Of a DNA stretch of 33,873 bases, positions 11,963 through 28,887 are shown piece by piece. A program made the translations under genes and the position numbers. The notes under the pieces are model-generated. The model was not told the origin of the DNA and ran no database searches. It was given only the letters and a program-made list of their open reading frames with translations. Origin of the DNA: Anaerolineae bacterium (GTDB taxonomy: Bacteria > Chloroflexota > Anaerolineae > Aggregatilineales > Phototrophicaceae). The stretch lies in contig JABWBO010000059.1 in the NCBI GenBank assembly GCA_013360465.1, positions 1 to 33,873 of the forward strand, in the 5' to 3' direction. Position 1 is the first letter of the stretch, and every line of letters starts with the position of its first letter.

Positions 11963-12901
11963 TCAATCCGGCTCCAAGCCCTCGAAGATGAACAGGCGGC
12001 TCAAGCCGCGATCCGACACGTAGGGAACGTAACCGGCGGCGCGGGAACGCGCGTACGAATCGGCGATGTGGTCCGGCTGGCGGCTGTAATTGACGGTCAG
12101 CACCAGCTTGCCGGCATTGACCCAGCGGGCGAGATCGGCTTCGCGGAGACGAGTCCAGTCCGCCGGCGAAGGCTGGTGATCGAGCGGATAGCCGTAGTAC
12201 AGGCTTTCGACCAGGATGCCGGTGACCGCCTCCAGATAGCCGGGCGCGGGATCGCGGAAGGGGATGTCTTCGCCGTTGATGGTGAAGACGCCGAAGCCCG
12301 GCGACCGCCGCCGGGCATGGTCGGCAATCGCCATGACGACCGCCGACATCTCGGCATAGGCGGACGTTCGCCCCTGTTCCGCATAATACGTCGCCGCATC
12401 CACCCGGTCGAGCAGCACGCCGTCGAAACCCATGTCGATGATCCGGTCCAGGTAGGACTCTGCGCCGGTGATGAGGATCGCCTGCCAGCGGGGATCCCAG
12501 TAATGCACCCAGATGTCGCCCGCCCAGGTCCCGTCCGGCGAATCAGCCCAGTCGGGGCGCGCGCCGGTCATGCTCCATTCCGGCTGCCAGTAGTACTGGA
12601 AGGTCGCCGCCTGTCCGACGCTCATGTAGGCGACGACCAGTTTTTCGCCGCCGGCGCTGTGGCGCAGACGTTCGATGTTGGCGGCGCTGCCGCCCGCCAG
12701 GGCGATGTCGGCGATCACCAGATCGTAGGCGGTCGGGGCGAGACGGTCAACGCGCGCCCGCTGAAGCTGGATGATGTAGTCGTTCACCGCCGACCATCTG
12801 CGCGGCGGTGCATCCTGAGCTGTCGTGACCGACGCGCTGAACAACAGCGCAGCGAGCGCGATGGATGTCCCCAGGATGAACTGTCGGCAGAGACGCTTCA
12901 C
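11963..12901 (-). CDS. Secreted GH114-type (TM1410/MJ1477-like) glycoside hydrolase
   Basis: A 312-residue protein with an N-terminal signal peptide (MKRLCRQ, hydrophobic core, cleavage near TTA-QD at 28-29). The rest matches the PF03537 TIM-barrel family: LVVAYMSVGQA, WVHYWDPRWQ, then MGFDGVLLDRVDA with candidate catalytic Asp165 and Asp168, and INGED around 208-212. CAZy GH114 in this clan contains endo-alpha-1,4-polygalactosaminidase; many relatives are uncharacterised. The chosen start is a GTG at 12901, with AAAGG nine bases upstream and the signal peptide right after it. A GTG at 12934 overlapping the permease stop (GTGA) is an alternative. It is the last gene of the importer operon, suggesting it cuts the polymer outside the cell for that importer. 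Confidence 0.85.
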   Translation of the reverse strand: MKRLCRQFILGTSIALAALLFSASVTTAQDAPPRRWSAVNDYIIQLQRARVDRLAPTAYDLVIADIALAGGSAANIERLRHSAGGEKLVVAYMSVGQAATFQYYWQPEWSMTGARPDWADSPDGTWAGDIWVHYWDPRWQAILITGAESYLDRIIDMGFDGVLLDRVDAATYYAEQGRTSAYAEMSAVVMAIADHARRRSPGFGVFTINGEDIPFRDPAPGYLEAVTGILVESLYYGYPLDHQPSPADWTRLREADLARWVNAGKLVLTVNYSRQPDHIADSYARSRAAGYVPYVSDRGLSRLFIFEGLEPD

Positions 12902-12930
12902 GAGGTTCAGCCTTTCGATCAGGGTTTCAC

Positions 12931-13773
12931 TCACCCCTTCAACCCGCTGAGCGAGAAGCCGCGCACCACCCAGCGGTTCATGACGATGTACAGGATCAGG
13001 ATCGGCATGACGATCAGCACCGATGCCGCCATCTGCAAGCCGATATCGCTGGTGTGCCGGTCGTTGTACCAGGTCAGGATGATCGGCAGGGTGCGCACAT
13101 CGACATCGCGCAGCACGATCAGGGGCCACAGGTAGGCGTTCCAGTTGGAGATGAAGACCAGCACGCCGAAGGTCGCCAGCGGCGCGAGCATCTGCGGCAG
13201 GACGATGCGCAGGAAGATCTGCCATTCGTTCGCCCCGTCGACGCGCCCGGCGTCGAGCAGTTCATCCGGCACGGAGATCATGAATTGGCGCATCAGAAAG
13301 ATGCCGAAGGCGTTGACCCAGCTCAGCGCGACCATGCCGAGCAGATTGTTGGTCAGGTCGAACTTGAGGAGGACCAGATACGACGGGATCATCGTCAGCT
13401 GGAAGGGGATCATCATGGTGATCAGGATGTAGGAAAACAGGGCGCGCTTGAAGCGGAAATTGAACTTGGCGAAGACGTAGCCGAAGAGCGCGCTGGTGAA
13501 GGTGTTGGTGATCACGTTGATGATGGCGATCAGGCTGCTGTTCAGGTAGAAACGCTCCAGCGGCAGGCTGTCGTCGTTGAAGATGGTGGCGTAGTTGTCG
13601 GTGGTGAATTCGCGCGGGAAGAAGGTCTGCGCCGCCGGGTTGATGATCTCGGCGTGGGTCTTGAAGGATGCCAGGATCGTCCAGGCGAAGGGCAGCAGGG
13701 TCAGCAGCCCGCCCAGCGTCAGGAGGACGTACACCAGCAGCTTGCCGGAGATGCGCCGCTTCTGCTGTGCCAT
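12931..13773 (-). CDS. Sugar ABC transporter permease, MalG type
   Basis: A 280-residue inner-membrane permease with six predicted helices, starting with a hydrophobic segment at about 12-33. The EAA-like coupling loop (DAGRVDGANEWQIFLRIVLP) lies in the last third. It pairs with the permease whose stop is three bases before its ATG, forming the membrane channel of a carbohydrate importer of the MalFGK type. No ATPase is encoded nearby, so a shared MsiK/UgpC-type ATPase elsewhere is inferred. Confidence 0.93.
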   Translation of the reverse strand: MAQQKRRISGKLLVYVLLTLGGLLTLLPFAWTILASFKTHAEIINPAAQTFFPREFTTDNYATIFNDDSLPLERFYLNSSLIAIINVITNTFTSALFGYVFAKFNFRFKRALFSYILITMMIPFQLTMIPSYLVLLKFDLTNNLLGMVALSWVNAFGIFLMRQFMISVPDELLDAGRVDGANEWQIFLRIVLPQMLAPLATFGVLVFISNWNAYLWPLIVLRDVDVRTLPIILTWYNDRHTSDIGLQMAASVLIVMPILILYIVMNRWVVRGFSLSGLKG

Positions 13774-13776
13774 CGC

Positions 13777-15000
13777 TCAATACTCCCAGTTGGTGCGCAG
13801 GACGCGCGTCTGAATGAGGGTCAGCACGGCAACGAACAGGAACATGACGACGGCAATCGCCGCCGCCCAGCCCATGCGCTCGAAGCGGAAGGCGTTTTCG
13901 TAGATATCCAGCACCAGCACCCGCGTCAACCCGATCCGCCCCGGTCCCCCCTGAGTCATCACCTGGATGATGTCGAAGACCTGAAACGAGGAGATCACTG
14001 TCAGCACGGAAGCCACCATGATCGTCGGACGCAGCAGCGGTAGGGTGACGAAGCGGAAGACATCCCAGTGCGTGCCGCCGTCCACCCGCGCGGCGTCCTT
14101 CAGGCTGTCGGGGATTCCCTGCAAGGCGGCGATGAAGATGACCAGGTTATAGCCGAAGTCCTGCCAGAGATAGGCGATGACCACCGCCGCCATCGCCGCC
14201 GGCACGCCCAGGATGGTGGCGGTCGGGTCTTGCAGCCAGGCGACGGGAGTCGCGCCGATGGTGCGCAAGCCGTTGTTGAGCAGCCCGTATTGGGCATTGA
14301 AGATGTAGCCCCACATGACGGCGACGCCGACGGACGAGGTGACCACCGGCAGGAAATAGAGGGTGCGGAAGAGCGAGCGGAAGAGGCTGTTGGTCGATTC
14401 GATCAGCACCGCCAGCGGGATGGTGATCAGCATGTTCAGCGGCAGGACCAGCAGCGTGAAGCTGAGTGTGTTCGTCAGGCTGCTCTGGAAGATGCGGGCG
14501 TCGCGCCCCGCGCCGCTGAGCATCTGCTGGAAGTACTCCAGCCCGACGAAGGGGTTGTCGCCGCCCAGCCCCAGCAAAGGACCGCCAAGGCGGCGCGGGC
14601 TGTAGTCGAAGAACGCCAGGGCGAACGCCCACAGCAGCGGGAACACGCTCAGCGTCGCCAGGTAGAAGACCAGCGGTGTGACGGTCCCCGCCGCCATGCC
14701 CTGCCGGCGCAGCTTCGGCGAGGCGGATACCGGCGCAAGCGCCCACAGCGCGCCCAGACCGACCAGCCCGCCGAGCAGGCTGATCCAGGGGGCAATTCCG
14801 GGCAGGATGCCGCCGAGCAGGGACAGCGCCAGGCGTCCGCCGATCTGCGCGGAGATCACGCCGACGATCAAGCCGAGCAGCGCGCCGCGCCAGGGGTTCA
14901 GCCCCTGGCGGTCGAAGATCAGCGGCGTGACCGAGGTCCCGATGAACGCTCCGATCATCAGCCAGTACAGCGTGAAGGCATCATAGTTGTAGGTTGGCAT
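13777..15000 (-). CDS. Sugar ABC transporter permease, MalF type, with extra N-terminal membrane region
   Basis: A 407-residue permease. Residues from about 104 on form a normal MalF-type permease with the EAA loop at 298-320 (DSLKDAARVDGGTHWDVFRF). Residues 1-95 are an added hydrophobic region with about three membrane segments (11-29, 38-64, 70-92), giving a protein some 100 residues longer than usual. The extension was not recognised as a known domain. The gene is separated from the binding protein gene by a block of palindromes and runs straight into the second permease. Confidence 0.9.
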   Translation of the reverse strand: MPTYNYDAFTLYWLMIGAFIGTSVTPLIFDRQGLNPWRGALLGLIVGVISAQIGGRLALSLLGGILPGIAPWISLLGGLVGLGALWALAPVSASPKLRRQGMAAGTVTPLVFYLATLSVFPLLWAFALAFFDYSPRRLGGPLLGLGGDNPFVGLEYFQQMLSGAGRDARIFQSSLTNTLSFTLLVLPLNMLITIPLAVLIESTNSLFRSLFRTLYFLPVVTSSVGVAVMWGYIFNAQYGLLNNGLRTIGATPVAWLQDPTATILGVPAAMAAVVIAYLWQDFGYNLVIFIAALQGIPDSLKDAARVDGGTHWDVFRFVTLPLLRPTIMVASVLTVISSFQVFDIIQVMTQGGPGRIGLTRVLVLDIYENAFRFERMGWAAAIAVVMFLFVAVLTLIQTRVLRTNWEY

Positions 15001-15048
15001 GGTGCTGGTTCCGCTCCATCCCGCAGGCTGTGAGAAAACGGGGCGTCA

Positions 15049-15173
15049 AGGAGGCGACCCGCCGGGTCGCTCCTACGAGCAATCAGGCGTAGGGGTGAGC
15101 CGGCGGCTCACCCGTCCGGATGGTGCATCTGACAATGCGACCGCATTGTCGGCGGACGCGCTTCTGCGTGTCC
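15049..15173. repeat. Block of four hairpins between binding-protein and permease genes
   Basis: Four stem-loops follow each other: 15049-15074 (one bulge), 15093-15113 (GGGTGAGCC-GGC-GGCTCACCC), 15131-15150 (GACAATGCG paired with CGCATTGTC), and 15154-15173 (with a G-U pair). Parts recur at 25629-25696, including CGCCGGGTCGC and CGGATG followed by CATCTG. The place fits the known habit of REP-like hairpins that protect binding-protein mRNA and lower permease expression. Confidence 0.75.
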
Positions 15174-15177
15174 CTAC

Positions 15178-16446
15178 CTAAAACGTCGCGTTAGCGTCTT
15201 CCTCGATAAACATCAGCGCCTCATCGACGGACATCAAGCCCTGAAGGGTGTCCAGGATGTACGGATAGAGGATGTCGTAGAAGACCAGATCGCGGTCGGG
15301 CATACGTCCGATGTAGCGCCCATACTGAAGCAGGGGCAGGTTCGCTTCCAGCCAGGGCAGCGCAGCGAGCAGCTCAGCGCGCGCCGCATCGGTCTCGACG
15401 ATCTCGCGCAGCGCCGGTATCGTGCCGGAGGTGATGTTCCAACCGAGCGCGTTTTCGGCACCGGCGGTCGCGAACTGGACGAAATCCCAGGCGATATCGG
15501 CATGTGGGCTGTTGCCGGCGACCGCCAGACCCCAGCCGGAATCCGCCGCGAACAGCGGGTCGGAGCTGCCGAACGAGGGCAGGGCGACGTAGCCGAATTC
15601 GCCAAAATCGGGGAAGTCGGAGAGACCGAAGGCGACCGCCCAGGGACCGATCAGCGTGATCGCCGCCTGGCTGGTGAAGAAGGCGTTGCCGCCCCAGTTG
15701 GCGGAGTCGTTGAACAGCACCGGGTCCACCGCGCCGGACTCCACCAGGCTGAGCATCTGTTCCAGCGTGTGACGGGCGGCGTCGGTGTTGAAGGTGAAGG
15801 CGGATCGATCTGCGTTCCAGTAATCGCCGCCGTTCTGCAGGATGCCGGCGAGGAAGCCGAAGGCGATGGCGTCGGCGTTGGTGAAGTGGTAGCCGGCGAC
15901 AGTCATCAGCCCGTCGCTGCCGGTCTGCGCCAGCGCGACTGCGTTGTTGTTGAGTTCATCCAGCGATGCCCAGGCGGGCGGATAGGTCAGTCCGGCGGCT
16001 TCGAACATCGCCTTGTTGACCAGCACCGTCCCGTATTCCATATTGAATTCCTGCGGCAGTCCGTAGACCTGATCATCGCAGAGGTAGCCGCCGACGGCTG
16101 CATCGAAGAACCGGCTGGTGTCCACCAGCCCGGCGGGCATCGCCGCCAGACGATCGGCGTAGCTGCACGTCCAGGAGCCGAACAGCCCCAGGATATCGGC
16201 ATTGTCGCCGGCGGGCAGGGCGGTTTGCAGCGTTTGAATGAACAGGTCATATTCAAACGTTTCCATGTCGATGGTTACGTTGGGGTGCAGCGCGGTGTAG
16301 GCGTCGATGAGCGCCTGCGTGCCGGTGTTGAAATTGGCTTCCTGATGTACCCACAGCCGCAGTGTGACGGGGGCATCCTGGGCGGTGGCGCTGAAAAGGG
16401 GAAGAGCGAGCGTCAGGACAGCGAGGATAAAAACGATCCGTTTCAT
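15178..16446 (-). CDS. Sugar-binding protein of an ABC importer
   Basis: A 422-residue extracellular solute-binding protein, family 1. It starts with a signal peptide (MKRIVFILAVLTLALPLFSA, then TAQ), without a lipobox cysteine, so it may be anchored another way or released. The mature part starts VTLRLWVHQEANFNTGTQ and shows the usual ALPAGDNADILG segment and later ligand-lobe motifs. The ATG at 16446 has AGGAGA eight bases upstream; an open frame continues 36 codons further but lacks these signs. It is the first gene of the leftward operon with two permeases and the GH114-type hydrolase. Confidence 0.92.
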   Translation of the reverse strand: MKRIVFILAVLTLALPLFSATAQDAPVTLRLWVHQEANFNTGTQALIDAYTALHPNVTIDMETFEYDLFIQTLQTALPAGDNADILGLFGSWTCSYADRLAAMPAGLVDTSRFFDAAVGGYLCDDQVYGLPQEFNMEYGTVLVNKAMFEAAGLTYPPAWASLDELNNNAVALAQTGSDGLMTVAGYHFTNADAIAFGFLAGILQNGGDYWNADRSAFTFNTDAARHTLEQMLSLVESGAVDPVLFNDSANWGGNAFFTSQAAITLIGPWAVAFGLSDFPDFGEFGYVALPSFGSSDPLFAADSGWGLAVAGNSPHADIAWDFVQFATAGAENALGWNITSGTIPALREIVETDAARAELLAALPWLEANLPLLQYGRYIGRMPDRDLVFYDILYPYILDTLQGLMSVDEALMFIEEDANATF

Positions 16447-16559
16447 TGCCCAAATCTCCTGTATCAATAGCGAACGGGGATTCTCATCCAGCGGCGTGGT
16501 GCGCGAATATTCGGGAGTAGTGGACCGGTCTGCCGAGCCGCCGGTGCTGCGCATTTATG

Positions 16560-16604
16560 CGCGATATTGATTGGATAAAGTGCAATATATCGCGATTTTG
16601 ATTG
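16560..16604. promoter_or_regulatory. Direct-repeat operator in the divergent control region
   Basis: CGCGATATTGATTG (16560-16573) and CGCGATTTTGATTG (16591-16604) match at 13 of 14 positions and start 31 bp apart, close to three helical turns. One copy lies at the start region of the leftward promoter; the other overlaps the rightward -35 box and the leftward spacer. The likely ligand is the DeoR-type regulator encoded at 20071-20853. This is inference. Confidence 0.55.
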
Positions 16605-16612
16605 ACATGCAA
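16584..16612 (-). promoter_or_regulatory. Leftward promoter for the importer/GH114 operon
   Basis: On the minus strand TTGCAT (16607-16612), a 17-bp spacer and TATATT (16584-16589). It overlaps the rightward promoter at its -35 end. The leader to the binding protein ATG would be about 130 bases. Confidence 0.55.
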
Positions 16613-16630
16613 GAGGTTCAGGGCTAGTAT
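16602..16630 (+). promoter_or_regulatory. Rightward promoter for the GH4/DeoR operon
   Basis: TTGACA at 16602-16607, a 17-bp spacer and TAGTAT at 16625-16630, a near-consensus sigma70 promoter. Transcription would start near 16637, about 70 bases before the GH4 ATG. Confidence 0.65.
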
Positions 16631-16704
16631 TAGGCGAAAGAGCGTACCTTAGGACGCCGAAATGCGCAGTTATGATCAGGAAATGATGCCGGGAATCGTG
16701 CAAA

Positions 16705-18015
16705 ATGACTAAAGTTGCCATCATCGGCGCGGGCAGCGCCGTATTCGCTTACGAGATCATGCGGGATGTGCTGGTCACGCCAGGCTTGGACGCCGGTACG
16801 TTCGCCCTGGTGGATATCGACGCCGAGCGGCTGGAACTGGCGCACCAGATCGCCGAGAAGCTGATCGCCGCGACCGGGCGGAGCTGGTCGGTGGAAGCTT
16901 CGACCGAGCGGGCGCAGGTGATCGCCGGGACGGATTATCTGATCAACACCATCGAGGTCGCCGGCATGGCAAATGTCCGCCACGACTTCGACATCCCGAT
17001 GAAATACGGTGTCGATCAATGCATCGGCGATACGATCGGACCCGGCGGCATCTTCAAGGCGCTGCGCACCCTGCCCGCCTGGCTCGACATCCTGCGCGAT
17101 ACCGAACGCCTGGCTCCGGGCGCGCTGGTCATGAACTACACCAACCCGATGTCGCTGACCTGCCTGACCGGCGTGCGGGCGTCGTCTCTGCCAATCGTCG
17201 GGCTGTGCCACTCGATTCAGAACACGCAGGAGCAGGTGGCGGGTTATCTCGGCGTGCCGCCGCGCGATCTCAAGTTCCGCTCCGCCGGCATCAATCATCT
17301 CGCCTGGCTGCTCGATCTGACCTACCAGGGCGAACCGATGACCCCGCGTCTGCGCGAAGCCGCCAAAGACCCGGCGATCTACGAACAGGACCCGATCCGC
17401 TTCGAGATGATGCTGCACCTCGGCGCGTTCGTCACCGAAAGCAGCGGGCATTTCTCGGAGTATGTGCCGTATTTCCGCAAACGCCCTGATCTGGTGGCGA
17501 AGTACACCCGTCCCGAATACCTGGGCGAGACCGGCTTCTATGCCAACAACTGGCCCATCTGGCGGGCGGAAGCCGACGAGTGGATTCGCCAGATGATCGC
17601 CGGGACGACGGAACTCGAACTGGAACGCGGACCCGAATATGCCTCGGCGATCATGGCGGCGGTCGAGACCGACACGCCGACGGTCATCTACGGCAATGTC
17701 CTCAACACCGGCTTGATCACCAACCTGCCGCAGGATGGCGTGGTGGAAGTCGCCTGTCTGGTCGATGAAAAGGGCATCCAGCCGACCTATTTCGGCGCGC
17801 TGCCCACGCAGCTGGCAGCGCTGGATCAGGCGCATATGGCGGTACACGATCTGGTCGCGACGGCGATCCTGGAGCAGAATCGGGACGCGGCATTCTACGC
17901 GCTGATGCTCGACCCGCTCACGGCGGCGGTCTGCTCGCCGGCGGAGATTCGGGCGATGTTCGACGAGATGGCGGCGACCGAAGCCGCCTATCTGCCGGGC
18001 TGGATGCGGCGCTAG
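16705..18015 (+). CDS. melA: GH4 alpha-galactosidase, MelA-like
   Basis: A 436-residue NAD- and metal-dependent glycosidase of family GH4, matching E. coli MelA along its whole length. The Rossmann start is VAIIGAGSAVFA at 4-15. The motif IGDTIGPGGIF lies at 107-117, MNYTNPM at 143-149, and the alpha-galactosidase-type CHSIQ at 168-172, with Cys168 as metal ligand. GINHLAW at 195-201 supplies the second metal ligand His198. GH4 enzymes cleave by oxidation at C3 and elimination. CHSxQ argues for alpha-galactosidase or alpha-glucuronidase rather than the phospho-glycosidases. No signal peptide, so it works on imported sugar. First gene of the rightward operon. Confidence 0.9.
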   Translation: MTKVAIIGAGSAVFAYEIMRDVLVTPGLDAGTFALVDIDAERLELAHQIAEKLIAATGRSWSVEASTERAQVIAGTDYLINTIEVAGMANVRHDFDIPMKYGVDQCIGDTIGPGGIFKALRTLPAWLDILRDTERLAPGALVMNYTNPMSLTCLTGVRASSLPIVGLCHSIQNTQEQVAGYLGVPPRDLKFRSAGINHLAWLLDLTYQGEPMTPRLREAAKDPAIYEQDPIRFEMMLHLGAFVTESSGHFSEYVPYFRKRPDLVAKYTRPEYLGETGFYANNWPIWRAEADEWIRQMIAGTTELELERGPEYASAIMAAVETDTPTVIYGNVLNTGLITNLPQDGVVEVACLVDEKGIQPTYFGALPTQLAALDQAHMAVHDLVATAILEQNRDAAFYALMLDPLTAAVCSPAEIRAMFDEMAATEAAYLPGWMRR

Positions 18016-18062
18016 CCCGCCGCCTTCGGACTGTATCGCACCGTCAACAGAGATGCAGGCAC

Positions 18063-19106
18063 ATGAACGATATTCCGCTGAGCGCATTTCGACCGATCCC
18101 CAGGCTGGTCGTCAAGTCAACGACGGTGACCCAGGCGAGATTCCCGGTTATCGACGCCCATAACCACCTCGCTGAGCCTTTCGGCGGCGGTTGGGATCAG
18201 CGCCCGATAACGGCGCTGCTCGACCGGCTGGATGAAGCCGGAGTGCGGCTGTACGTCGATCTCGACGGCGGCTGGGGGGAAGACCTGCTGCACCGTCATC
18301 TCGACGGCATCAAGGCGCACGCCCCGGAGCGCTTCCGGGTCTTCGGCGGTGTCGATTGGTCGAAGTGGGCAGAACAGGGGGACGACTTCGGGCAGTGGGC
18401 TGCCGAGCGTTTTCGTCAACAGGCGGCGCGCGGCGCGGACGGCTTGAAGATCTGGAAGCCCTTCGGGCTGCACATCCGCGATCAGCATGATGTGCTGGTC
18501 GCCATCGACGATCCTCGTCTCGACCCGCTGTGGGCGACCGCCGGTGAACTGAATCTGCCCGTCCTGATCCATGTCGCCGATCCAGTCGCTTTTTTCGATC
18601 CGCTGGATGCGACCAACGAGCGCTTCGAGGAGCTGAACGCGCATCCGGACTGGCAGTTCCCCAGCCCGCCGTACCCGCCGTTCATGACGATCATGACCGA
18701 TTTTCACAATCTTGTGGCGCGCCACTCGCGGACCACCTTCATCGGCGCGCACGTCGGCTGTTACAGCGAAAACCTGGGCTGGGTAGGGCAGATGCTCGAC
18801 GACTGCCCGAACTTCTACGTGGACATCAGCGCCCGCATCAGCGAGCTGGGACGGCAGCCCTACACGGCGCGCCGCTTCTTTCTGCACTACGCCGATCGTA
18901 TCCTCTTCGGCATCGACGCCGGCGCTGATCTGGATACGTACCGCATCTACTACCGTTTTCTGGAGACGGACGACGAGTATTTCAACTACGGCGCGGGAGC
19001 AATCCCCGGTCAGGGGCGCTGGCAGATCTGCGGGCTGTCCCTGCCGGATGACGTGCTGGAAAAGGTCTACTTTCGCAACGCAGAAAGGCTGCTGACGCGC
19101 TCATGA
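18063..19106 (+). CDS. Metal-dependent amidohydrolase family protein
   Basis: A 347-residue protein of the amidohydrolase-2 family (PF04909). Expected metal ligands are visible: HNH at 33-35 (DAHNHL), His170 (VLIHVAD), His230 (GAHVG) and Asp285 (FGIDAG). Members hydrolyse or decarboxylate small ring compounds and lactones. The exact reaction is not readable from sequence, and it is not the AGE/NagA-type deacetylase family. The gene lies 47 bases after the GH4 gene and overlaps the next gene by ATGA, so it is firmly part of the sugar operon. A role in opening a sugar-derived lactone or processing an acyl group is only a suggestion. Confidence 0.85.
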   Translation: MNDIPLSAFRPIPRLVVKSTTVTQARFPVIDAHNHLAEPFGGGWDQRPITALLDRLDEAGVRLYVDLDGGWGEDLLHRHLDGIKAHAPERFRVFGGVDWSKWAEQGDDFGQWAAERFRQQAARGADGLKIWKPFGLHIRDQHDVLVAIDDPRLDPLWATAGELNLPVLIHVADPVAFFDPLDATNERFEELNAHPDWQFPSPPYPPFMTIMTDFHNLVARHSRTTFIGAHVGCYSENLGWVGQMLDDCPNFYVDISARISELGRQPYTARRFFLHYADRILFGIDAGADLDTYRIYYRFLETDDEYFNYGAGAIPGQGRWQICGLSLPDDVLEKVYFRNAERLLTRS

Positions 19107-20053
19107 CCCCGCCGATCCTTATCGACTGCGTGACCCCCAACGCCGCGCTCGACCGCACCCTGGTTGTGCCCGGCTACCAGCAGGGCGGGGTGTTCCGCCC
19201 GCAAAAGGCGATCCTCGCCGCCGGCGGCAAAGGGATCAACGTGGCGCGCGCCGCCGACGTCCTGGGCGGGAGGGCGCGCTGTTTCGGATTCGTCGCCGGG
19301 CATTCGGGCAGGCTGCTGACCGATCTGGCAAGCCGCGAAGGGTTGGTCTGCCGCTTCACGCCGCTGGAGGCGGGCGAGACGCGCACGTGTACCGTCCTTG
19401 CCGACCCAGACCTGGGGGTGACCACGCTGGTCAACGAGGCGGGGGCGGCGACTGCGGCAGCGGACTGGGCGCGGCTGCGCGCCGACCTGCTCGCCGACGC
19501 CGAACCGCGCACGATCTGTTTTTGCGGCAGCCTGCCGCCCGGTTCGCCTCTCGACTCTTTTGCGCAGCTGCTCGGCGACTGCGCAGCGGCGGGGCACAGC
19601 GTCTGGGTCGATACCAGCGGCGCGGCGCTGATGGCGGCGTCGAAGGTACGGGGGGTGAATCTCAAGGTCAACGATGAAGAGGCTTCAGTCCTGACCAGCG
19701 TGCTGATCCCCTCGCCAGAGATCGCCACGGCGACCGCCGCTCTTCTGGCAGACGTTTCCGGCGCGTTCGCGGTGATCACGATGGGCAAGGCGGGCGCGAT
19801 TCTGGCGGCAGGCGGGCGCACCTGGCTGGCGAAGCCGCCGCACATCGCCGTCAAGAGCGCCGTTGGCAGCGGCGATTCGTTCCTCGCCGGGCTGCTGGTC
19901 GCGCTTGGCGCGGGCGAACCGCCAGATGCGGCGCTGCGCAGGGCGGCGGCGGCGGGCGCAGCGAATGCCCAATCCTATGGCGGTGGGCAGTTCAGCCTGG
20001 AATCATTCCGCGCGGCATTCGAAGCGACGACCCTTGCGTCTGTGGTCGGTTAG
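19103..20053 (+). CDS. PfkB-family sugar kinase (1-phosphofructokinase / tagatose-6-phosphate kinase type)
   Basis: A 316-residue PfkB kinase of the FruK/LacC branch. Visible motifs are TPNAALDRTL at 11-20, the substrate loop AGGKGINVA at 40-48, CGSLPPG at 141-147, NLKVNDEE at 186-193, and the anion hole with catalytic base GSGDS (Asp258). The enzymes phosphorylate fructose-1-phosphate, tagatose-6-phosphate or related sugar phosphates with ATP. With a GH4 alpha-galactosidase and a DeoR-type repressor beside it, a tagatose or galactosamine route is attractive, but FruK-type activity cannot be excluded. Its ATG overlaps the amidohydrolase stop. Confidence 0.87.
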   Translation: MTPPILIDCVTPNAALDRTLVVPGYQQGGVFRPQKAILAAGGKGINVARAADVLGGRARCFGFVAGHSGRLLTDLASREGLVCRFTPLEAGETRTCTVLADPDLGVTTLVNEAGAATAAADWARLRADLLADAEPRTICFCGSLPPGSPLDSFAQLLGDCAAAGHSVWVDTSGAALMAASKVRGVNLKVNDEEASVLTSVLIPSPEIATATAALLADVSGAFAVITMGKAGAILAAGGRTWLAKPPHIAVKSAVGSGDSFLAGLLVALGAGEPPDAALRRAAAAGAANAQSYGGGQFSLESFRAAFEATTLASVVG

Positions 20054-20070
20054 ACGCTGGAGATCAAACG

Positions 20071-20853
20071 ATGGCAAACTCTGACCTGTTGGGACTGGAA
20101 CGTCAGGAAAAGATTACGCAGGCGCTGGAGCAGCGCGGCACGCTGACCGTCGCCCAGATCAGCGCGATGTTCGAAGTGAGCGAGGCGACGGTGCGGCGCG
20201 ACCTGACGGCGCTGGCGGCGCGCGATGTGATCCGCCGTGTGCATGGCGGAGCGATGGTACACCACGCCGTCGCCACCAGCGAAGCGCCCATCGTACACCG
20301 CCAGAAGCAGAATGCCGAGATCAAGCGGCGCATCGGCAGGGCGGCGGTGCAGCTCATCCACAGCGGCGAAACGGTCCTGCTGATCGGCGGCAGTACCGGG
20401 CTTGCCGTCGCCCGCGAGCTGGCGCATCATGCCAGCCTGACGATTGTCACGGATTCGCTGCTGGTGGCGAACGAACTCATGCGCCAGGGAATTCACCGCG
20501 TGATCATGCTCGGCGGCATGATTGACGCTGACGAATTCGCCGTGCGAGGCACACTGTCGCGGCTGATCCTCGCCGAACTTCAGGTCGATAAGGTGATCGT
20601 CGGCACCAAGGCGATCTCGGCAGAACGCGGGTTAAGCGCGGAAAGCGCCGAAGAAGCCGAGCTGTTCCGCAGCTACCTCAAAGCCGGACACAGCGTCATC
20701 GTGGTGACCGACAGCAGCAAATTCCGACAGTCGGCGCTGGCGCGCATCGCGCCGGTGGAATCCATCGATATCCTGGTGACGGACAGTCACCTGCCGGAAG
20801 AAGTCGCCGATAAACTGCGCGAAGCAGGGGTGATCATCCAGATCGCCGAGTGA
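20071..20853 (+). CDS. DeoR/GlpR-family transcriptional regulator
   Basis: A 260-residue regulator. The N-terminal winged helix contains the family signature (RQEKITQALEQRG at 11-23, then VSEATVRRDLTAL and the VHGGA turn near 60). The C-terminal DeoRC sugar-phosphate sensing domain follows (LIGGSTGLAVARELA, VTDSLLVANEL, AERGLSAESAEEAE). These repressors usually respond to phosphorylated sugars such as the product of the neighbouring PfkB kinase. GGAG eight bases before the ATG supports the start. The best operator candidate is the direct repeat at 16560-16604. It is the last gene of the operon. Confidence 0.92.
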   Translation: MANSDLLGLERQEKITQALEQRGTLTVAQISAMFEVSEATVRRDLTALAARDVIRRVHGGAMVHHAVATSEAPIVHRQKQNAEIKRRIGRAAVQLIHSGETVLLIGGSTGLAVARELAHHASLTIVTDSLLVANELMRQGIHRVIMLGGMIDADEFAVRGTLSRLILAELQVDKVIVGTKAISAERGLSAESAEEAELFRSYLKAGHSVIVVTDSSKFRQSALARIAPVESIDILVTDSHLPEEVADKLREAGVIIQIAE

Positions 20854-20872
20854 GCGAGGCGGCGCACCTTCA

Positions 20873-20894
20873 AGGCGGGTCTCGCCTCTTTTCT
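20873..20894 (+). terminator. Weak intrinsic terminator after the DeoR-type gene
   Basis: AGGCG (20873-20877) pairs with CGCCT (20883-20887) around GGTCT, followed by CTTTTCT. The stem is only five base pairs, so efficiency is doubtful. Confidence 0.45.
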
Positions 20895-20927
20895 CGTTCT
20901 AACGTTTTTGGCGGTTGCTCCCTCAAG

Positions 20928-20954
20928 CCTCACCCTGTTTCGCTGCACTCACCC
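20928..20954. repeat. Degraded copy of the 9746-9809 repeat
   Basis: CCTCACCCTGTTTCGCTGCA and the following CTCACCC match the reverse complement of 9782-9808 with few changes. The inner palindrome is absent. Confidence 0.55.
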
Positions 20955-21006
20955 GCTCCATGTGCAGAGCATCTGACGCGCCATGCCCGACATAGGACGG
21001 ACTTTC

Positions 21007-21020
21007 CGCAAACGTATGCA
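21007..21020. promoter_or_regulatory. Second LacI-type operator candidate
   Basis: CGCAAACGTATGCA agrees with the main site TGCAAACGCTTGCA at 11 of 14 positions. It lies about 141 bp upstream of the main site, a distance that could allow looping. Confidence 0.4.
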
Positions 21021-21113
21021 TAAACTTGCACCTGTTCGTTTTCCCCGAATTTGACGGTTTTGCACAAATATTCCGCTCAATCTACCTGCATCTTGATGGA
21101 TTTCGCCAATTTG

Positions 21114-21142
21114 TTGACAAGTTCTGGCACTCATGTTATTTT
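21114..21142 (+). promoter_or_regulatory. Promoter of the LacI/xylo-oligosaccharide operon
   Basis: TTGACA at 21114-21119, a 17-bp spacer and TATTTT at 21137-21142. Transcription would start near 21149, inside the operator that follows. Confidence 0.65.
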
Positions 21143-21147
21143 AATTG

Positions 21148-21161
21148 TGCAAACGCTTGCA
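21148..21161. promoter_or_regulatory. LacI-family operator over the transcription start
   Basis: TGCAAACGCTTGCA has symmetrical TGCAA/TTGCA half-sites around a central CG, the typical LacI-family form. It begins five bases after the -10 box, where bound repressor blocks initiation. The gene just downstream encodes a LacI-type protein, so autoregulation is likely. Confidence 0.75.
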
Positions 21162-21252
21162 AGTCCGACGCAGCGAATACGGAAAGCCTGTACAAGACGC
21201 TCACGCTACAATTGCATTCATTGACTGAATGAACTCTTGGGAATGTGTGCAG

Positions 21253-22308
21253 ATGGACAGCAGCCGAAAGAAGAGTACGCGGGTCACTATCCTTGATGTC
21301 GCCAGAGAATCTGGCGTCTCGTACTCGACCGTATCGCGGGCGTTGAACGGCTTCGACTTTGTCAAGGGGGCGACGCGCGACAAGGTGCTGGCGGCAGCCG
21401 AGAAACTGGGCTATGTCGCCAACATCCAGGCGCGCAGTCTTGCCGGGGGCAGGACCCGAATTATCGGGCTGCTCGTCCCTGGGCTGGACAACGGCTATAT
21501 CGGCGAGATCGTGCGCGGTATCGACGAGGAGATCGCCAAGTCGAATTACGACCTGATGCTCTACACGACGCGGCGGAGAGTCGGGCGGGAAGCGATGTAT
21601 ATCGACGCCATCAGCAATGGACCCTCCGACGGGATCATCCTGATCGTGCCGCTGCTGGAACGGGAATATCTGACGGCGCTGAGAGAACACCACTTTGCGT
21701 ACGTGCTGGTGGACCAGATCGACCCCCAGATGCACAGCCCGATGGTCGATGCCACCAACTGGCAGGGCGCCTACGACGCGACCAAGTACCTGATCGACCT
21801 CGGACACCGGCGCATCGGCTTTATCACCGGGCTGCGCGCTATCCAGAGCGCCCTGGATCGGCTGGATGGCTATAAGGCGGCGCTTGCTGATCACGGCGTG
21901 CGCTTCGATGAGGGGCTGATCGCCGAAGGGGATTTCTTCACGCCAAGCGGGTATGCGGCGGCGCAGAAGCTGCTCAAACACAAGCCGCGTCCGACCGCCG
22001 TTTTCGCGTCAAACGATTTGATGGCGATGGGGGCGATGCAGGCGATTCGCGACCAGGGGCTGGAAATCCCCGCCGATATTTCCGTCATGGGCTTTGACGA
22101 CATCCCGCAGGCATCGATGGTTCACCCGCAGCTGACGACAGTGCGCCAGCCGCTCGAACAGATGGGACGGGTAGCGGTGAGCCTCCTGATTGAGCAAATT
22201 GAGAGACCTGAAAATCCTGAACGCGCCGCGCGGCGAGTCACACTCGCGACGCGCCTGATAGAGCGCGAGTCCTGCGCAGCAGTGCCGACCTCGGACAAGA
22301 AGAGCTAA
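21253..22308 (+). CDS. LacI-family transcriptional regulator
   Basis: A 351-residue repressor. The N-terminal helix-turn-helix and hinge helix (VTILDVARESGVSYSTVSRA, then LNG; later ARSLAGGRT) bind DNA; the rest is the periplasmic-binding-protein-like sensor (IIGLLVPGLDNGYIGEIVRG, VFASNDLMAMGAMQAI, ISVMGFDDIPQASMVHPQLT). The ATG at 21253 is preferred because GGGA stands upstream, though 12 bases away; an in-frame ATG at 21229 has no ribosome site. It stands 84 bases before the sugar-binding protein gene on the same strand, so one transcript is likely. The inducer is probably a xylo-oligosaccharide, by context only. Confidence 0.92.
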   Translation: MDSSRKKSTRVTILDVARESGVSYSTVSRALNGFDFVKGATRDKVLAAAEKLGYVANIQARSLAGGRTRIIGLLVPGLDNGYIGEIVRGIDEEIAKSNYDLMLYTTRRRVGREAMYIDAISNGPSDGIILIVPLLEREYLTALREHHFAYVLVDQIDPQMHSPMVDATNWQGAYDATKYLIDLGHRRIGFITGLRAIQSALDRLDGYKAALADHGVRFDEGLIAEGDFFTPSGYAAAQKLLKHKPRPTAVFASNDLMAMGAMQAIRDQGLEIPADISVMGFDDIPQASMVHPQLTTVRQPLEQMGRVAVSLLIEQIERPENPERAARRVTLATRLIERESCAAVPTSDKKS

Positions 22309-22392
22309 CCGAACAGGAGGCGTTATTGAACTGAACTCCATTCAACCGGCATACGACAACTCTCTTGACATGAAACTCATTAGGAGGATTCC

Positions 22393-23682
22393 ATGCGTAC
22401 CCAGCGTTTGATGGTGTTGATGGCGGCAGTTCTGCTGCTGGCTCTGTCGGTGGGCGCGGTCGGCGCACTAGACCCCGTGACGGTTGAATGGTGGACGATC
22501 TACACGACCCCGCCGGAGCTGCCCGCCCTGGCAGAGACGCTCGCCGCCGAATTCATGGCAATGCACCCGGAAGTGACCATCGAAATCACCCACCTGGAGA
22601 ATGAAGCTTTTAAGGAACGTCTGGCGACCCTGATGCAGTCGGGCGATGCGCCGGACCTGTTCCAGAGCTGGGGCGGCGGCGTGCTGTGGAACTACGCCGA
22701 AGCCGGTTTGCTGCGCGACATCACGCCGGAACTCACCGCCGATGGCGGAGCCTGGCAGAACAGCTTCAGCGCTCAGGCGGCGCTCGACCTGTACAGCCAC
22801 AACGGCGTCTATTACGGCGTGCCGATGACCTTTGGCGCGGTCGGTTTCTGGTACAACCGCCGCCTGTTCGAAGAAGCAGGTATTGAGGGCGTTCCGGCGA
22901 CCTGGGCTGAATTCCTGGCGGACGTGCAGCTGCTCAAGGACGCCGGCATCACCCCGATCGCTCTGGGCGAGAAGGACAAATGGCCCGGTCACTTCTGGTG
23001 GGTCTATCTGGCGATCCGCGAGGGCGGTCAGGCGGCGTTCGAAGCGGCGTACACCCGTGAAGGAACCTTCGCCGACGCGCCTTTCGTGGCGGCGGGCGAA
23101 CGGCTTCAGGAACTGATCGCGCTGGAACCCTTCCAGACCGACTTCCTGGCGATGGGTTACGGACAGCACGCCGGCTTGGTCGGCAACGGCGAGGCGGCGA
23201 TGGAGCTGATGGGGCAGTGGGCGCCTGGCGTGCAGAAGGGCAACAGCGAGAGCGGTGAAGGTCTGCCGGAAGGCGAGCTGGGCTGGTTCCCATTCCCGAT
23301 GATTGAAGGCGGCGCGGGTGGCGCGACGGACGTCCTGGGCGGCGGTGACGGCATCGCGGTCGGCAAGAATGCGCCCGACGCGGCGGTTGAATTCCTGCGC
23401 TACCTGACGACCCCGGAAGTCCAGATTCGCTACTCTGATCTGAACATCGGCTTCATCCCGACGGTTGTCGGTGCAGAGTCGGCGGTCACCGACTCGCTGC
23501 TGCAAACCGTGTCGGCGGCGCGCAACGACGCCGAATACTATCAGCTGTACTACGACCAGTTCCTGCCGCCGGCTGTCGCCCAGGCAGTGCTGGATGCGGT
23601 GGAAGGATTGTTCGTGGGGACGCTGAGCGCGGCGGACGCTGCCCAGTCGATTGAAGACACGGCATCCTTTGAGCTTGAATAG
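22393..23682 (+). CDS. Sugar-binding protein of the second ABC importer
   Basis: A 429-residue solute-binding protein, family 1. It has a signal peptide (MRTQRLMVLMAAVLLLALSV, cleavage near 23-26) without lipobox cysteine, then VTVEWWTIYTTPPELPALAE and the typical APDLFQSWGGGVL. Aromatic residues are frequent in the mature part, as expected for oligosaccharide binding. AGGAGG five bases before the ATG is a strong ribosome site, fitting a protein made in excess. Followed by a strong stem-loop and then by two permeases. Confidence 0.93.
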   Translation: MRTQRLMVLMAAVLLLALSVGAVGALDPVTVEWWTIYTTPPELPALAETLAAEFMAMHPEVTIEITHLENEAFKERLATLMQSGDAPDLFQSWGGGVLWNYAEAGLLRDITPELTADGGAWQNSFSAQAALDLYSHNGVYYGVPMTFGAVGFWYNRRLFEEAGIEGVPATWAEFLADVQLLKDAGITPIALGEKDKWPGHFWWVYLAIREGGQAAFEAAYTREGTFADAPFVAAGERLQELIALEPFQTDFLAMGYGQHAGLVGNGEAAMELMGQWAPGVQKGNSESGEGLPEGELGWFPFPMIEGGAGGATDVLGGGDGIAVGKNAPDAAVEFLRYLTTPEVQIRYSDLNIGFIPTVVGAESAVTDSLLQTVSAARNDAEYYQLYYDQFLPPAVAQAVLDAVEGLFVGTLSAADAAQSIEDTASFELE

Positions 23683-23699
23683 CCTGGCTTGACCGGCGG

Positions 23700-23735
23700 G
23701 GCGGGGATGTCCATCACAGGATATCCCCGCCTTTT
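23700..23735 (+). terminator. Stem-loop with T-run between binding protein and permeases
   Basis: GGCGGGGATGTCC (23700-23712) pairs with GGATATCCCCGCC (23719-23731), with one G-U pair, around ATCACA; TTTT follows. It looks like a leaky intrinsic terminator or mRNA-stabilising structure that keeps binding protein levels above permease levels. Confidence 0.75.
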
Positions 23736-23769
23736 ATGTAAAAAGACCTGTTTGCGAGAGGACCCTCCT

Positions 23770-24726
23770 ATGGCGAGCCGTTCGACCCCTCGATTTCGTT
23801 TCACCCAGCGCGAGCGCCCAGCAGCCAACGAGCGCCCACGAACCCGGACCGAACAGCTCCTGACCATTGGATTGTTCGTCCTGCCCGGAGCCGCCATCTA
23901 CACCCTGTTTCTGGTCTTTCCCATCGTCCAGGCGAGCTACTTCAGTCTGCACGACTGGAACGGGCTGGGACCGGTCACCGATTTCATAGGGCTGGGCAAC
24001 TTCGAGCGCGCCTTCCAACACGATGTCTTCGTCAATTCCGTCATCCACAGCCTGACGATCATGTCGCTGTCGCTGGCGATCCAGCTGCCGCTGGCGATCA
24101 TGCTGGCGCTGATGGTGGGGCGTAAACTGCCGGGGCGCATGATCTACCGCAGCATCTTCTTCATGCCCTACGTCTTTTCAGAAGTCGTCACCGCCATCAT
24201 CTGGTTGTTCGTCTATAACCCTGGCGGCGGTATGCTGAACACTGTGCTGTCGTCGATCTTCCCCGGCTACGTGCCGCAGGGCTGGCTCGCCAACCGCGAT
24301 ATCGCCCTGCTGGCGGTGTTCTTCGTCATCACCTGGAAATACTTCGGCTTGCATATGATCCTGTACATGGCAGGGTTGCAGTCGATCAACAGCGAGGTCG
24401 AAGAATCGGCGCGCATCGACGGCGCGAACGAACTGCAGGTGCTGCGCTACATCACCCTTCCCCTGCTCGCGCCGACCATCCGCCTCAGCGTTTATCTTTC
24501 GGTGCTGGGATCGCTCAATCAATTCGTGCTGGTCTGGGTGTTGACCACCGGCGGGCCCGCTAATGCGACTCAGGTCATGGCGTCCTACATGTACCGCTTC
24601 GGGGTCAAGAGCTTCAACCTGGGCTACGGCAGCGCCGTCGCGGTGATCATCTTCGTGATTTCACTCATCTTCTCGATCGGTTACCAGCGTACGATCATGC
24701 GCCGCGATTACGCGGGGTCAGTCTAG
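23770..24726 (+). CDS. Sugar ABC transporter permease, MalF type
   Basis: A 318-residue inner-membrane permease. A basic N-terminus of about 35 residues is followed by six predicted helices; the EAA coupling loop (EVEESARIDGANELQVLRYI) lies in the second half. The ATG at 23770 is chosen because AGAGG stands eight bases before it. An open frame continues upstream to 23689 through the stem-loop and is not credible. It pairs with the permease encoded 19 bases downstream. No ATPase gene is present in the locus. Confidence 0.93.
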   Translation: MASRSTPRFRFTQRERPAANERPRTRTEQLLTIGLFVLPGAAIYTLFLVFPIVQASYFSLHDWNGLGPVTDFIGLGNFERAFQHDVFVNSVIHSLTIMSLSLAIQLPLAIMLALMVGRKLPGRMIYRSIFFMPYVFSEVVTAIIWLFVYNPGGGMLNTVLSSIFPGYVPQGWLANRDIALLAVFFVITWKYFGLHMILYMAGLQSINSEVEESARIDGANELQVLRYITLPLLAPTIRLSVYLSVLGSLNQFVLVWVLTTGGPANATQVMASYMYRFGVKSFNLGYGSAVAVIIFVISLIFSIGYQRTIMRRDYAGSV

Positions 24727-24745
24727 GTCAGGGGGCAACTTTCCA

Positions 24746-25615
24746 ATGGCAGAGGCACTTGCAGCAATCACTTCCAGCCCACGCGCCCCGTATCGCCGCT
24801 GGCTTTCGCGCGGTTTTCAGTATCTCGTCCTGACCGCGCTGGCGTTCCTGGTCCTGGGTCCCATCCTGACGGCGGTGTTGGGCGGGCTGAAGACGACCGG
24901 CGAGCTGTTCGCCGAGCCGTTCGGCTTGCCGACGATCCCGCGATGGGAGAACTATACCGACATCATCACCGGCGAATTGTTCTGGAGACAGCTGTTGAAC
25001 AGCGCGATCATCGTCACCGGAACGGTCAGCCTGACGCTGATGACTTCGGCGCTGCTGGCGTTCGTCTTCAGCCGTCTGGTCTTCACCGGACGGGAACTGC
25101 TCTTCAACTTCTTCACGCTGGGGCTGCTCTTTCCGGTCACTATCGCTTTCCTGCCGGTGTTCATCCAGGTGCGTCAGCTCGGCTTGATCGACAGCTATTT
25201 CGGCGTCATCCTGCCGCTGGTCGCCTTCGGCATCCCCGGCAGCACGCTCATCCTGCGCGGATTCTTCCGGGCGATTCCGTCGGAACTGGAAGATGCGGCG
25301 TACATCGACGGGTGCAGCACGCTGGGCTTCTTCTGGTATGTGCTGCTGCCGCTGGCGCGCCCGGCGCTGGGGGCAATCGTCGTCCTGCAGACCATTGTCT
25401 CGTGGAACGAATACTTCCTGCCGCTGCTGATCCTGACGGATGACTCCAAATGGCCCCTCACCCTGGGGATCATGCAGTTTCAAGGGCAGTACGGGACCGA
25501 CTGGGGCAGGGTGATGGCGTTCGTATCGCTCCTGCTCGTCCCGGCGGTGCTGTTCTACATCCTGACCCAGAAATACATCGTGACCGGGCTGACGGGCGGT
25601 GAGCTGAAGGGGTAG
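24746..25615 (+). CDS. Sugar ABC transporter permease, MalG type
   Basis: A 289-residue inner-membrane permease with six predicted helices. The EAA loop (SELEDAAYIDGCSTLGFFWY) and the C-terminal YIVTGLTGGELKG are typical of MalG-type subunits. It completes the importer for the presumed xylo-oligosaccharides. A palindromic repeat follows before the GH8 gene. Confidence 0.93.
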   Translation: MAEALAAITSSPRAPYRRWLSRGFQYLVLTALAFLVLGPILTAVLGGLKTTGELFAEPFGLPTIPRWENYTDIITGELFWRQLLNSAIIVTGTVSLTLMTSALLAFVFSRLVFTGRELLFNFFTLGLLFPVTIAFLPVFIQVRQLGLIDSYFGVILPLVAFGIPGSTLILRGFFRAIPSELEDAAYIDGCSTLGFFWYVLLPLARPALGAIVVLQTIVSWNEYFLPLLILTDDSKWPLTLGIMQFQGQYGTDWGRVMAFVSLLLVPAVLFYILTQKYIVTGLTGGELKG

Positions 25616-25628
25616 CGCCTGTGAACGG

Positions 25629-25696
25629 TGGCGGTCGAGCCGCCGGGTCGCCCGCTCGACCATCCGCCATGACCTCGGATGTGCCATCTGGCGGGG
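25629..25696. repeat. Palindromic repeat between permease and GH8 genes
   Basis: TGGCGGTCGAGC (25629-25640) faces GCTCGACC-ATCCGCCA (25654-25669), pairing with a small bulge. CGCCGGGTCGC and the CGGATG/CATCTG stretch are shared with the hairpin block at 15049-15173. It is the second copy of that repeat family, again inside a sugar-import operon. Confidence 0.65.
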
Positions 25697-25731
25697 TTCA
25701 TGACTTCTCGATTTCATAGAAAGGCGAGGCT

Positions 25732-26943: not shown

Positions 26944-26969
26944 GTCCAGGGGATCATTGGGGGAAAGAC

Positions 26970-27845
26970 ATGCTGAAATCCGGCGATATTCATATCCGCG
27001 ATCCGTTTGTGCTGCCCGTCGCGGGGGAGCAGTGCTACTACCTCTACGGGACGACCGGCGAGGAGGCGTGGACCAGCGCCGCGACGAGGCTGGATTACTA
27101 TACCAGTGCCGATCTGCGGACCTGGGCGGGACCTTTTCCCGCCTTCAGTCCGCCGGCAGGCTTTTGGGCAGATCGCAACTTCTGGGCGCCGGAAGTTCAC
27201 GAATATCGCGGGCGGTACTATATGTTCGCCAGCTTCAAAGCCGAGGGAGTCTGCCGGGGGACGCAGATCCTTGCGGCAGATCGCCCGGAGGGTCCGTTTC
27301 TGCCGCACAGCCAGGGACCGCTCACTCCCCGCGCCTGGGAATGCCTGGACGGAACACTCTTTGTTGATATTGATAACCAGCCCTGGATGGTCTTCTGCCA
27401 CGAGTGGGTGCAGGTGCGGGATGGGGAACTCTGCGCGCTGCCCCTGAGCGACGATCTGACGATGGCAGTGGGTCAGCCGCGCCTGCTCTTCACGGCGTCC
27501 GAAGCGCCCTGGGCGAAAGAGATCAACTCGAAGGACCGGCGGGGCTATGTCACCGACGGTCCCTGGCTGCATCGCCTGGCGAGCGGCGTGCTGATCATGC
27601 TGTGGTCCAGCTTCAGCGAGGGCGGCTATACCATCGGGGTAGCGCGCTCCGCCTGTGGCGACATCCTGGGTCCCTGGCGGCAGCAGCCGGAAGCGCTGTA
27701 CGCTGGTGACGGCGGGCACTGCATGACTTTCCGCGCCTTTGACGGACGGCTCTTCCTGGCGCTGCATCGTCCCAACCCGTCGCCCTGTGAGCGTCCGCAG
27801 TTCATCCCCCTGCGCGAGACCGATTCGACGGTGGAGATCGGCTGA
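26970..27845 (+). CDS. GH43-family glycosidase, cytoplasmic
   Basis: A 291-residue five-bladed propeller glycosidase of family GH43 without signal peptide. The catalytic base is Asp11 in HIRDPFV, WAPEV follows at 72-76, and the pKa-modulating Asp127 lies in ECLDGTLF. At the general-acid position the protein has TDGPWL (Asp196) where most GH43 enzymes have Glu-Gly-Pro; this variant occurs in some little-studied subfamilies. Activity is therefore open: beta-xylosidase or alpha-arabinofuranosidase on imported oligosaccharides fits the context. GGGGGAAAG just before the ATG is the ribosome site. Last gene of the LacI-headed operon; it converges with the oxidoreductase gene. Confidence 0.85.
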   Translation: MLKSGDIHIRDPFVLPVAGEQCYYLYGTTGEEAWTSAATRLDYYTSADLRTWAGPFPAFSPPAGFWADRNFWAPEVHEYRGRYYMFASFKAEGVCRGTQILAADRPEGPFLPHSQGPLTPRAWECLDGTLFVDIDNQPWMVFCHEWVQVRDGELCALPLSDDLTMAVGQPRLLFTASEAPWAKEINSKDRRGYVTDGPWLHRLASGVLIMLWSSFSEGGYTIGVARSACGDILGPWRQQPEALYAGDGGHCMTFRAFDGRLFLALHRPNPSPCERPQFIPLRETDSTVEIG

Positions 27846-27872
27846 TCCCACCGTCTGCGCTGCCCTGATGCC

Positions 27873-28862: not shown

Positions 28863-28887
28863 GACCTTTCTGCTTCTCGACCCCGCC

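Follow-up and report, generated by a model that had tools for sequence, protein, structure and literature searches.

Organization of the locus

The window, the whole stretch of 33,873 nucleotides analyzed here, comes from an Anaerolineae genome assembly of 5.9 Mb in 256 contigs, and it carries two divergent gene sets separated by an intergenic region (Table 1). The leftward set encodes a sugar ABC importer and a GH114-type protein; the rightward set comprises genes for a GH4 family glycosidase, an amidohydrolase, a hexose kinase, and a DeoR-family regulator. The gaps between these four rightward genes are 47, -4, and 17 bases, and they are therefore probably one operon. To the right of it stands a LacI regulator with its own ABC importer (21229-24726).

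Table 1. Coordinates of genes, promoters, and putative operator elements in the window
Feature	Position	Strand	Remarks
GH114-type (polygalactosaminidase family) protein	11963-12900	-	start codon approximate
ABC permease	12931-13773	-	
ABC permease	13777-15000	-	
Sugar ABC transporter substrate-binding protein	15178-16446	-	
O1, strongest operator candidate	16548-16565	+	TGCGCATTTA, TGCGCGAT, a pair of 10-bp units; roughly +13 to +30 from the predicted leftward start
Repeat copy 1 of the preliminary description	16560-16573	+	CGCGATATTGATTG; parts of units 2 and 3
Third 10-bp unit	16568-16577	+	TGATTGGATA; directly 3' of O1; 16558-16575 ranks fifth among placements in the window
Leftward promoter (predicted)	16584-16612	-	-35 TTGCAT (16612-16607), 17-bp spacer, -10 TATATT (16589-16584); into the substrate-binding protein gene
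Unit pair	16589-16608	+	ATCGCGATTT, TGATTGACAT; rightward -35 falls in the second of the pair; three turns (31 bp) from units 2 and 3
Repeat copy 2 of the preliminary description	16591-16604	+	CGCGATTTTGATTG; parts of units 4 and 5
Rightward promoter (predicted)	16602-16630	+	TTGACA (16602-16607), 17-bp spacer, TAGTAT (16625-16630); into the GH4 gene
O2, second operator candidate	16661-16678	-	TGATCATAACTGCGCATT on the - strand, inverted relative to O1; roughly +25 to +42 from the predicted rightward start
GH4 family glycosidase	16705-18015	+	alpha-galactosidase subfamily model, score above cut-off
Amidohydrolase_2 protein (AMH)	18063-19106	+	family by domain model
PfkB-family hexose kinase	19103-20053	+	
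DeoR-family regulator, proposed binder	20071-20853	+	HTH_DeoR and DeoRC above cut-off
LacI-family protein	21229-22308		

For comparison we turned to the order to which the genome belongs, where GH4 homologs at E ≤ 1e-60 occur in 106 of 151 genomes. Twenty other near-full-length GH4 loci, at 65-97% identity, were taken; partial matches in genomes G130 (78%, over part of the protein) and G013 (in two pieces) were not included. In 12 of the 20 the substrate-binding protein is encoded divergently, and in one more (L050) the contig ends past a divergent SIS gene, while in the remaining 7 no other window gene was found above 80 bits within the fetched stretch. The 14 loci compared below are thus the window and 13 relatives, the 12 with the divergent substrate-binding protein plus L050. 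Among the 13 is L043, a 97% sister of the window, and since all of these loci are related, counts across them are not independent.

The gene set of 11963-20853 and of loci L045-L049, L053, and L054 includes the GH114-type protein, the ABC importer, and GH4, joined in several relatives by SIS (AgaS-like), PfkB, and aldolase genes. Together these genes suggest a pathway for a polymer containing galactosamine, perhaps a Pel-like polysaccharide. In the window's locus we found neither the SIS gene nor the aldolase that the arms of several relatives carry, and its kinase is of a different PfkB type from the one in those relatives; for the window and L043, a pathway variant or gene loss may lie behind these differences. 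The Amidohydrolase_2 protein is encoded near DeoR or SIS genes in many of the loci examined and has a 68% paralog at a second locus of the source genome, C202, described below.

Overlapping divergent promoters

A preliminary description of this DNA had placed two promoters, pointing apart, between the arms. Both stand where it put them, and they overlap over 16602-16612, or 11 bases. The rightward promoter matches consensus at 10 of 12 positions; the leftward one matches at 8 of 12, with only 3 of 6 in its -35, and our consensus scan listed the first and missed the second. A rightward promoter with a 17-bp spacer is present in 14 of 14 loci, at 8-11 of 12 positions, though this is the best match within 230 bp upstream and so not a blind test. 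The leftward promoter recurs in the identical register in 12 of the 14 (7-11 of 12 positions), where the two -35 hexamers share one base, and it is absent in L054 and L055 (3 and 4 of 12). Scored by itself, its -10 is better than expected from mononucleotide shuffling in 8 of 14 loci (p < 0.03). Given the common register in 12 loci, we regard the overlap as genuine and kept among the orthologous loci. By consensus, then, the core promoters overlap as in a switch of the pLS20 type, and because they do, two polymerases should be unable to occupy the pair at once.

The pattern TGMTTGAC-18-TANNNT has 12 matches in the source genome, 2 of them at loci treated in this work, versus 1 for a reversed control. 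This suggests that a TGC or TGA ahead of TTGAC belongs to the ordinary promoters of this lineage, and the operator unit that coincides with the rightward -35 may be no more than a promoter element.

A 10-bp array beneath the 31-bp repeat

The preliminary description had also reported a direct repeat of three helical turns lying across both promoters, and linked it to control by one repressor. The copies are indeed 31 bp apart and identical at 13 of 14 positions, and a 14-mer direct repeat with at most one mismatch arises in only 5 of 1,000 dinucleotide shuffles of the intergenic region (16447-16704). What did not stand is its presence in front of orthologous loci: the exact repeat is found in the window and L043, 2 of 14 loci, with 1-7 of 14 positions matching in the other 12. 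Non-conservation in relatives was a refuting condition set in the preliminary description, and on that ground we rejected the repeat itself as the operator. Its use as a genome-wide probe was likewise abandoned: with up to two mismatches allowed, the 14-mer matches 59 times and its reversed control 18 times, which is not specific enough to delimit a regulon.

What is kept before the orthologous genes, and withstands that condition, is an array of 10-bp period with a unit of approximately TGMKYR. In the window the units are TGCGCATTTA, TGCGCGATAT, and TGATTGGATA from 16548, followed by ATCGCGATTT and TGATTGACAT from 16589. The 31-bp pair is a piece of the array that chances to be repeated in this species.

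The array emerges from two kinds of analysis. In an expectation-maximization search, two equal (tied) units were allowed on both strands and anywhere between about -75 and +85 relative to the rightward -35, with training on 13 loci (L043 omitted as near-identical to the window). At period 10 the log-likelihood ratio is 102.6, whereas the remaining periods in the range 8-23 give 31.9-69.2. With gaps of 2 and 3 taken together the ratio is 94.7, whereas 100 shuffled sets reach 40.3 at most and average 31.8; these had fewer restarts and had lost the relatedness of the loci, two defects of which the period-versus-period comparison is free. Autocorrelation over 13 loci, which needs no motif model, is highest at lag 10 (z 6.6), followed by lags 20 (z 3.6), 41 (z 3.5), and 30/31 (z 2.1/1.8), with lags 4 (z 3.2) and 14 (z 2.6) also raised. 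Imperfect direct repeats of 10-11 bp periodicity, the mark of a tandem-repeat operator of the DeoR family, are therefore present, with the qualification that an inverted reading does nearly as well: a 16-bp tied inverted-repeat model of O1 reaches 99.4 versus 102.6 for the direct one. The core site admits two readings, a direct repeat of 10 bp or an imperfect palindrome, and its direct symmetry is provisional.

Two candidate operators enclosing the promoters

When a model trained on 12 loci, with neither the window nor L043 among them, was run over the window, the first and second of 135,424 placements were O1 (21.1) and O2 (17.7), the third (13.5) falling in coding sequence. O1 partly overlaps repeat copy 1, whereas O2 lies outside 16560-16630, the region of the preliminary description. 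The two are in opposite orientation, each shortly past one of the predicted starts (taken as 7 bases beyond each -10, near 16577 leftward and 16637 rightward), and enclose both promoters. By leave-one-out scoring, 6 of 13 loci have a strong O2, 2 have a weak one, and in 5 none is clear; a strong O2 is inverse to O1 in 5 of 6 cases, the exception being L045, with both sites on the same strand.

The idea that the same control might extend to the LacI/second-ABC module at the right found no support, in that none of the ten best placements falls within 16679-30924. The LacI regulator and its importer are probably under separate control, judging from this distribution of sites.

The motif at other loci

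The closest match to the SIS protein in the source genome, at 42% identity, led us to a second divergent sugar locus, C202 (L095:5513-5752), where an amidohydrolase gene is divergent from a SIS gene and the 10-bp array recurs. Its intergenic region contains TGCGCATTTT, TGCACAAAAC, followed by TGATTGAC, part of a promoter whose spacer is 17 bp; facing the other way are TGATTATTTC, TGATTGTCTT, and TGACA, so that the leftward-side -35 is itself on the 10-bp grid. The two promoters at C202 do not overlap. A similar pattern is found in three orthologs at 70-75%.

Scored with the model from the GH4 loci, all 6 held-out regions (C202, L110, L111-L113, and G142) fall between 13.7 and 19.8; C202 and L110 are 98% sisters by their SIS protein, and in G142 a 58% DeoR gene is divergent from an amidohydrolase-SIS-ABC-GH4 gene row. 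The 39 negatives, upstream regions of 7 order-level GH4 genes, 9 class-level GH4 genes, and 23 SIS2 homologs, have a median of 3.6, with one (L130) at 13.7, equal to the weakest held-out region, and all others at or below 8.9. Left out of the negatives were L132, L138 (which comes from G142, a held-out region), and two SIS2-homolog matches without a locus. Thirty more distant GH4 loci, of which 4 repeat earlier negatives, give a maximum of 14.8 (L194), above the weakest held-out region, and next 10.7 (three Ktedonobacter loci); a fragment, L195, went unscored. Beside these, 11 high scorers (15.4-21.8) appear to be copies of loci already used and add no new evidence.

These scores bear on a skeptical view, that the promoters alone are functional and the repeat is chance sequence in an AT-rich promoter region. 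Such a view draws on the absence of the exact 31-bp repeat from all but 2 of 14 loci and on the likeness of the -35-linked unit to a common promoter element. It does not account for O1 and O2, which lie outside the hexamers and were recovered by a model trained elsewhere, nor for the prediction of separate loci by the motif, and we consider it very improbable.

The candidate regulator

A DeoR ortholog at least 53% identical occurs in 14 of 14 genomes with the motif, within the fetched locus in 10 and elsewhere in the genome in 4. Where the GH4 locus is without the motif (7 genomes), a DeoR search at E ≤ 1e-40 comes up empty in 5 and yields nothing closer than 41-42% homologs in the other 2. 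In two further genomes, G108 and G146, SIS2 and a DeoR gene (42%) point away from each other, with the same motif between them. Overall, the motif is kept before orthologous and co-regulated genes and absent where the regulator is absent, and the DeoR-family regulator is encoded with the target genes, as befits an operator of this class.

The best NCBIfam model for the regulator is AgaR (NF040755), at 185.5 bits versus a cut-off of 260; the score being below the cut-off, we do not name the protein AgaR. We also asked whether the recognition helix identifies the binder. In most of the window group it is SEATxRRDL, with SETTIRRDL in L054 and L078; G108 and G146 have SPATARRDL, and the three DeoR paralogs in the window's genome have SSVTVRGDL, SEGTIRNDL, and SAVTIRQDL. 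The homologs from motif-less loci L081 and L090 also have SEATIRRDL, and the helix, which does not separate motif-bearing from motif-less loci, was set aside as weakly informative.

The sites might instead belong to another regulator, for example the LacI-family protein reading O1 as a palindrome. The inverted form of O1 (TGAGC-N6-GCTCA) does fit almost as well as the direct one, the LacI gene is in the window, and the G054 locus has a 58% ortholog. Against this, LacI matches above 50% are present in only 2 of the 13 fetched motif loci (L043 and L049), with a 33% match on the opposite strand in L047, several loci ending at contig ends and the LacI search covering the fetched stretches; a DeoR ortholog accompanies the motif in 14 of 14 genomes, and a DeoR gene diverges across it in G108 and G146. 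On this distribution the LacI-type protein appears the poorer candidate, and ownership of the sites by another regulator is improbable. A single DeoR-type regulator, which the preliminary description had proposed as a switch for the whole bipartite locus, remains the best reading for the two arms, in view of the co-occurrence of motif and regulator and the position of the DeoR gene in the rightward operon; the part of that proposal which does not carry over is the LacI/ABC module at the right.

Possible helical phasing of the sites

Under the inverted model, O1 starts at -54 from the rightward -35 in 5 loci, and at -43, -33, and -23 in 2 loci each, with 2 off the grid (-52 in L049 and -55 in L045). 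Phasing with the promoter as good as this, with the O1 sites collapsed to 8 positions (a choice of our own), was matched by 13 of 20,000 and 31 of 50,000 random sets. The direct model moves some O1 sites (L045 to -57, L054 to -34, and L055 to -25), and 1,874 of 50,000 random sets then match the collapsed positions, with 9 of 50,000 matching all 13 uncollapsed. It is likely but not firm that O1 shifts by whole helical turns among the relatives, the pattern being clear in one motif model and weak in the other.

One might go further and suppose a modular operator that gains and loses one-turn units, in which the promoter pair is fixed to the base, the main site steps through -54, -43, -33, and -23 on the same face, and the -35 word is itself a unit. 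Because the phasing is weak under the direct-repeat model, we think this doubtful. If true, it would provide a natural series of phase-preserving shifts for the operator of one repressor; and if the whole-turn shifts are real, the natural loci would constitute a ready-made experiment on how a DeoR-type oligomer faces a promoter.

A related question is whether a DeoR oligomer bridges O1 and O2 and closes a small repression loop round both promoters, as at Pc/Pr of pLS20. That plasmid offers a precedent of overlapping divergent promoters with a 75-bp loop (PMC4207663). Here O1 and O2 are opposed around the promoters in 5 of 6 strong-O2 loci, and O2 is phased with the promoter, in that random sets matching numbered 1,258 (six strong sites), 384 (six collapsed), and 123 (eight sites) of 50,000. 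With bridging, the spacing of the sites might follow the helix; the O1-O2 distances, 69-113 bp, are not significantly phased (15,326 for six, 7,288 for six collapsed, and 3,518 for eight, of 50,000); moreover, 5 of 13 loci have no clear O2. We regard the loop as a tentative possibility.

Proposed mechanism

The promoters, the 10-bp array, their conservation, and the co-occurrence of the motif with the regulator can be read directly from the DNA, and the mechanism that we infer from them is one of shared control. We think it likely that the intergenic region is a hub at which one DeoR-type repressor shuts both promoters, with O1 and O2 as candidate sites. Two sigma-70-type promoters with overlapping -35 regions would serve, to the left, the sugar ABC importer and the GH114 protein and, to the right, the GH4-amidohydrolase-kinase-DeoR genes. 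The DeoR-family protein would bind 10-bp tandem units on one helix face, most strongly at O1 and O2, which are opposed in the early transcribed regions and enclose both promoters, and more weakly at the units across the promoters. When no sugar (or sugar-phosphate) signal is present, a DeoR oligomer would close both promoters, its own operon included; when the signal appears, DeoR would leave, and in the open state the promoter pair would admit one polymerase at a time. In this scheme, co-repression, oligomerization, and the inducer are taken by analogy from the DeoR family, while mutual exclusion is what the overlap leads us to expect, and binding is likewise a prediction.

In this scheme an unannotated intergenic region becomes a regulon that can be tested: its motif is defined, a regulator is proposed for it, one genome holds two target loci, and the promoter pair would share polymerase. 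The named relatives of the lineage found here are for the most part metagenome assemblies. Among the matches listed in a search of the open-licence literature, judged by titles and opening lines of abstracts, none concerned either this locus or a DeoR operator from Aggregatilineales.

Comparison with known systems

The nearest parallel in the operator is RhaR, a DeoR-family regulator whose operators in four groups, Chloroflexus among them, are described as two imperfect direct repeats with a period of 10-11 bp (PMC3870299). In Chloroflexus aurantiacus, four tandem RhaR sites within 38 bp were tested by EMSA, and L-rhamnulose abolishes binding (PMC3870299). Shared with our locus are the DeoR family, a sugar catabolic setting, the 10-11 bp repeats, and the phylum; the RhaR unit is TCGAAA, as against approximately TGMKYR here, the pathways differ, and the overlapping divergent promoters with flanking inverse operators seen here have no counterpart in the passages on RhaR available to us (PMC3870299). 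Another local DeoR-family regulator beside a sugar operon, AxgR of Caldicellulosiruptor, has a tandem-repeat site conserved in eight genomes; that site is a prediction only, and the passages on it that we consulted describe no overlapping promoters (PMC8579813).

In gene content, the likeness is to AgaR and the aga-gam genes of Escherichia coli, in that AgaR is the best NCBIfam model for our regulator and that relatives of the locus have an AgaS-like SIS protein, a kinase, and an aldolase. Sugar uptake in the E. coli aga-gam system is by PTS, whereas here it is by an ABC importer. AgaR is a DeoR-family repressor of several galactosamine-pathway promoters (PMC3668189, PMC4694137), and its sites in E. 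coli are called palindromes (PMC4694137).

The parallel in promoter architecture is with pLS20. Its regulator, RcoLS20, is not known to belong to the DeoR family, and its subject is plasmid conjugation. At Pc/Pr, as here, divergent promoters overlap, with several short motifs overlapping and flanking them; in pLS20, polymerase can bind only one of the two promoters (PMC4207663). The second operator of pLS20 has its motifs on the lower strand, while those on the promoter side are, but for one, on the upper; only one of the two operators overlaps the promoters, and the tetramer and loop come from experiment (PMC4207663). From the RhaR and pLS20 precedents it follows that the type of switch is already known, and this locus is a conserved further example of it. 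Tandem 10-11-bp DeoR operators are themselves familiar; what is less usual here is the combination, together with the apparent one-turn shifts of the operator.
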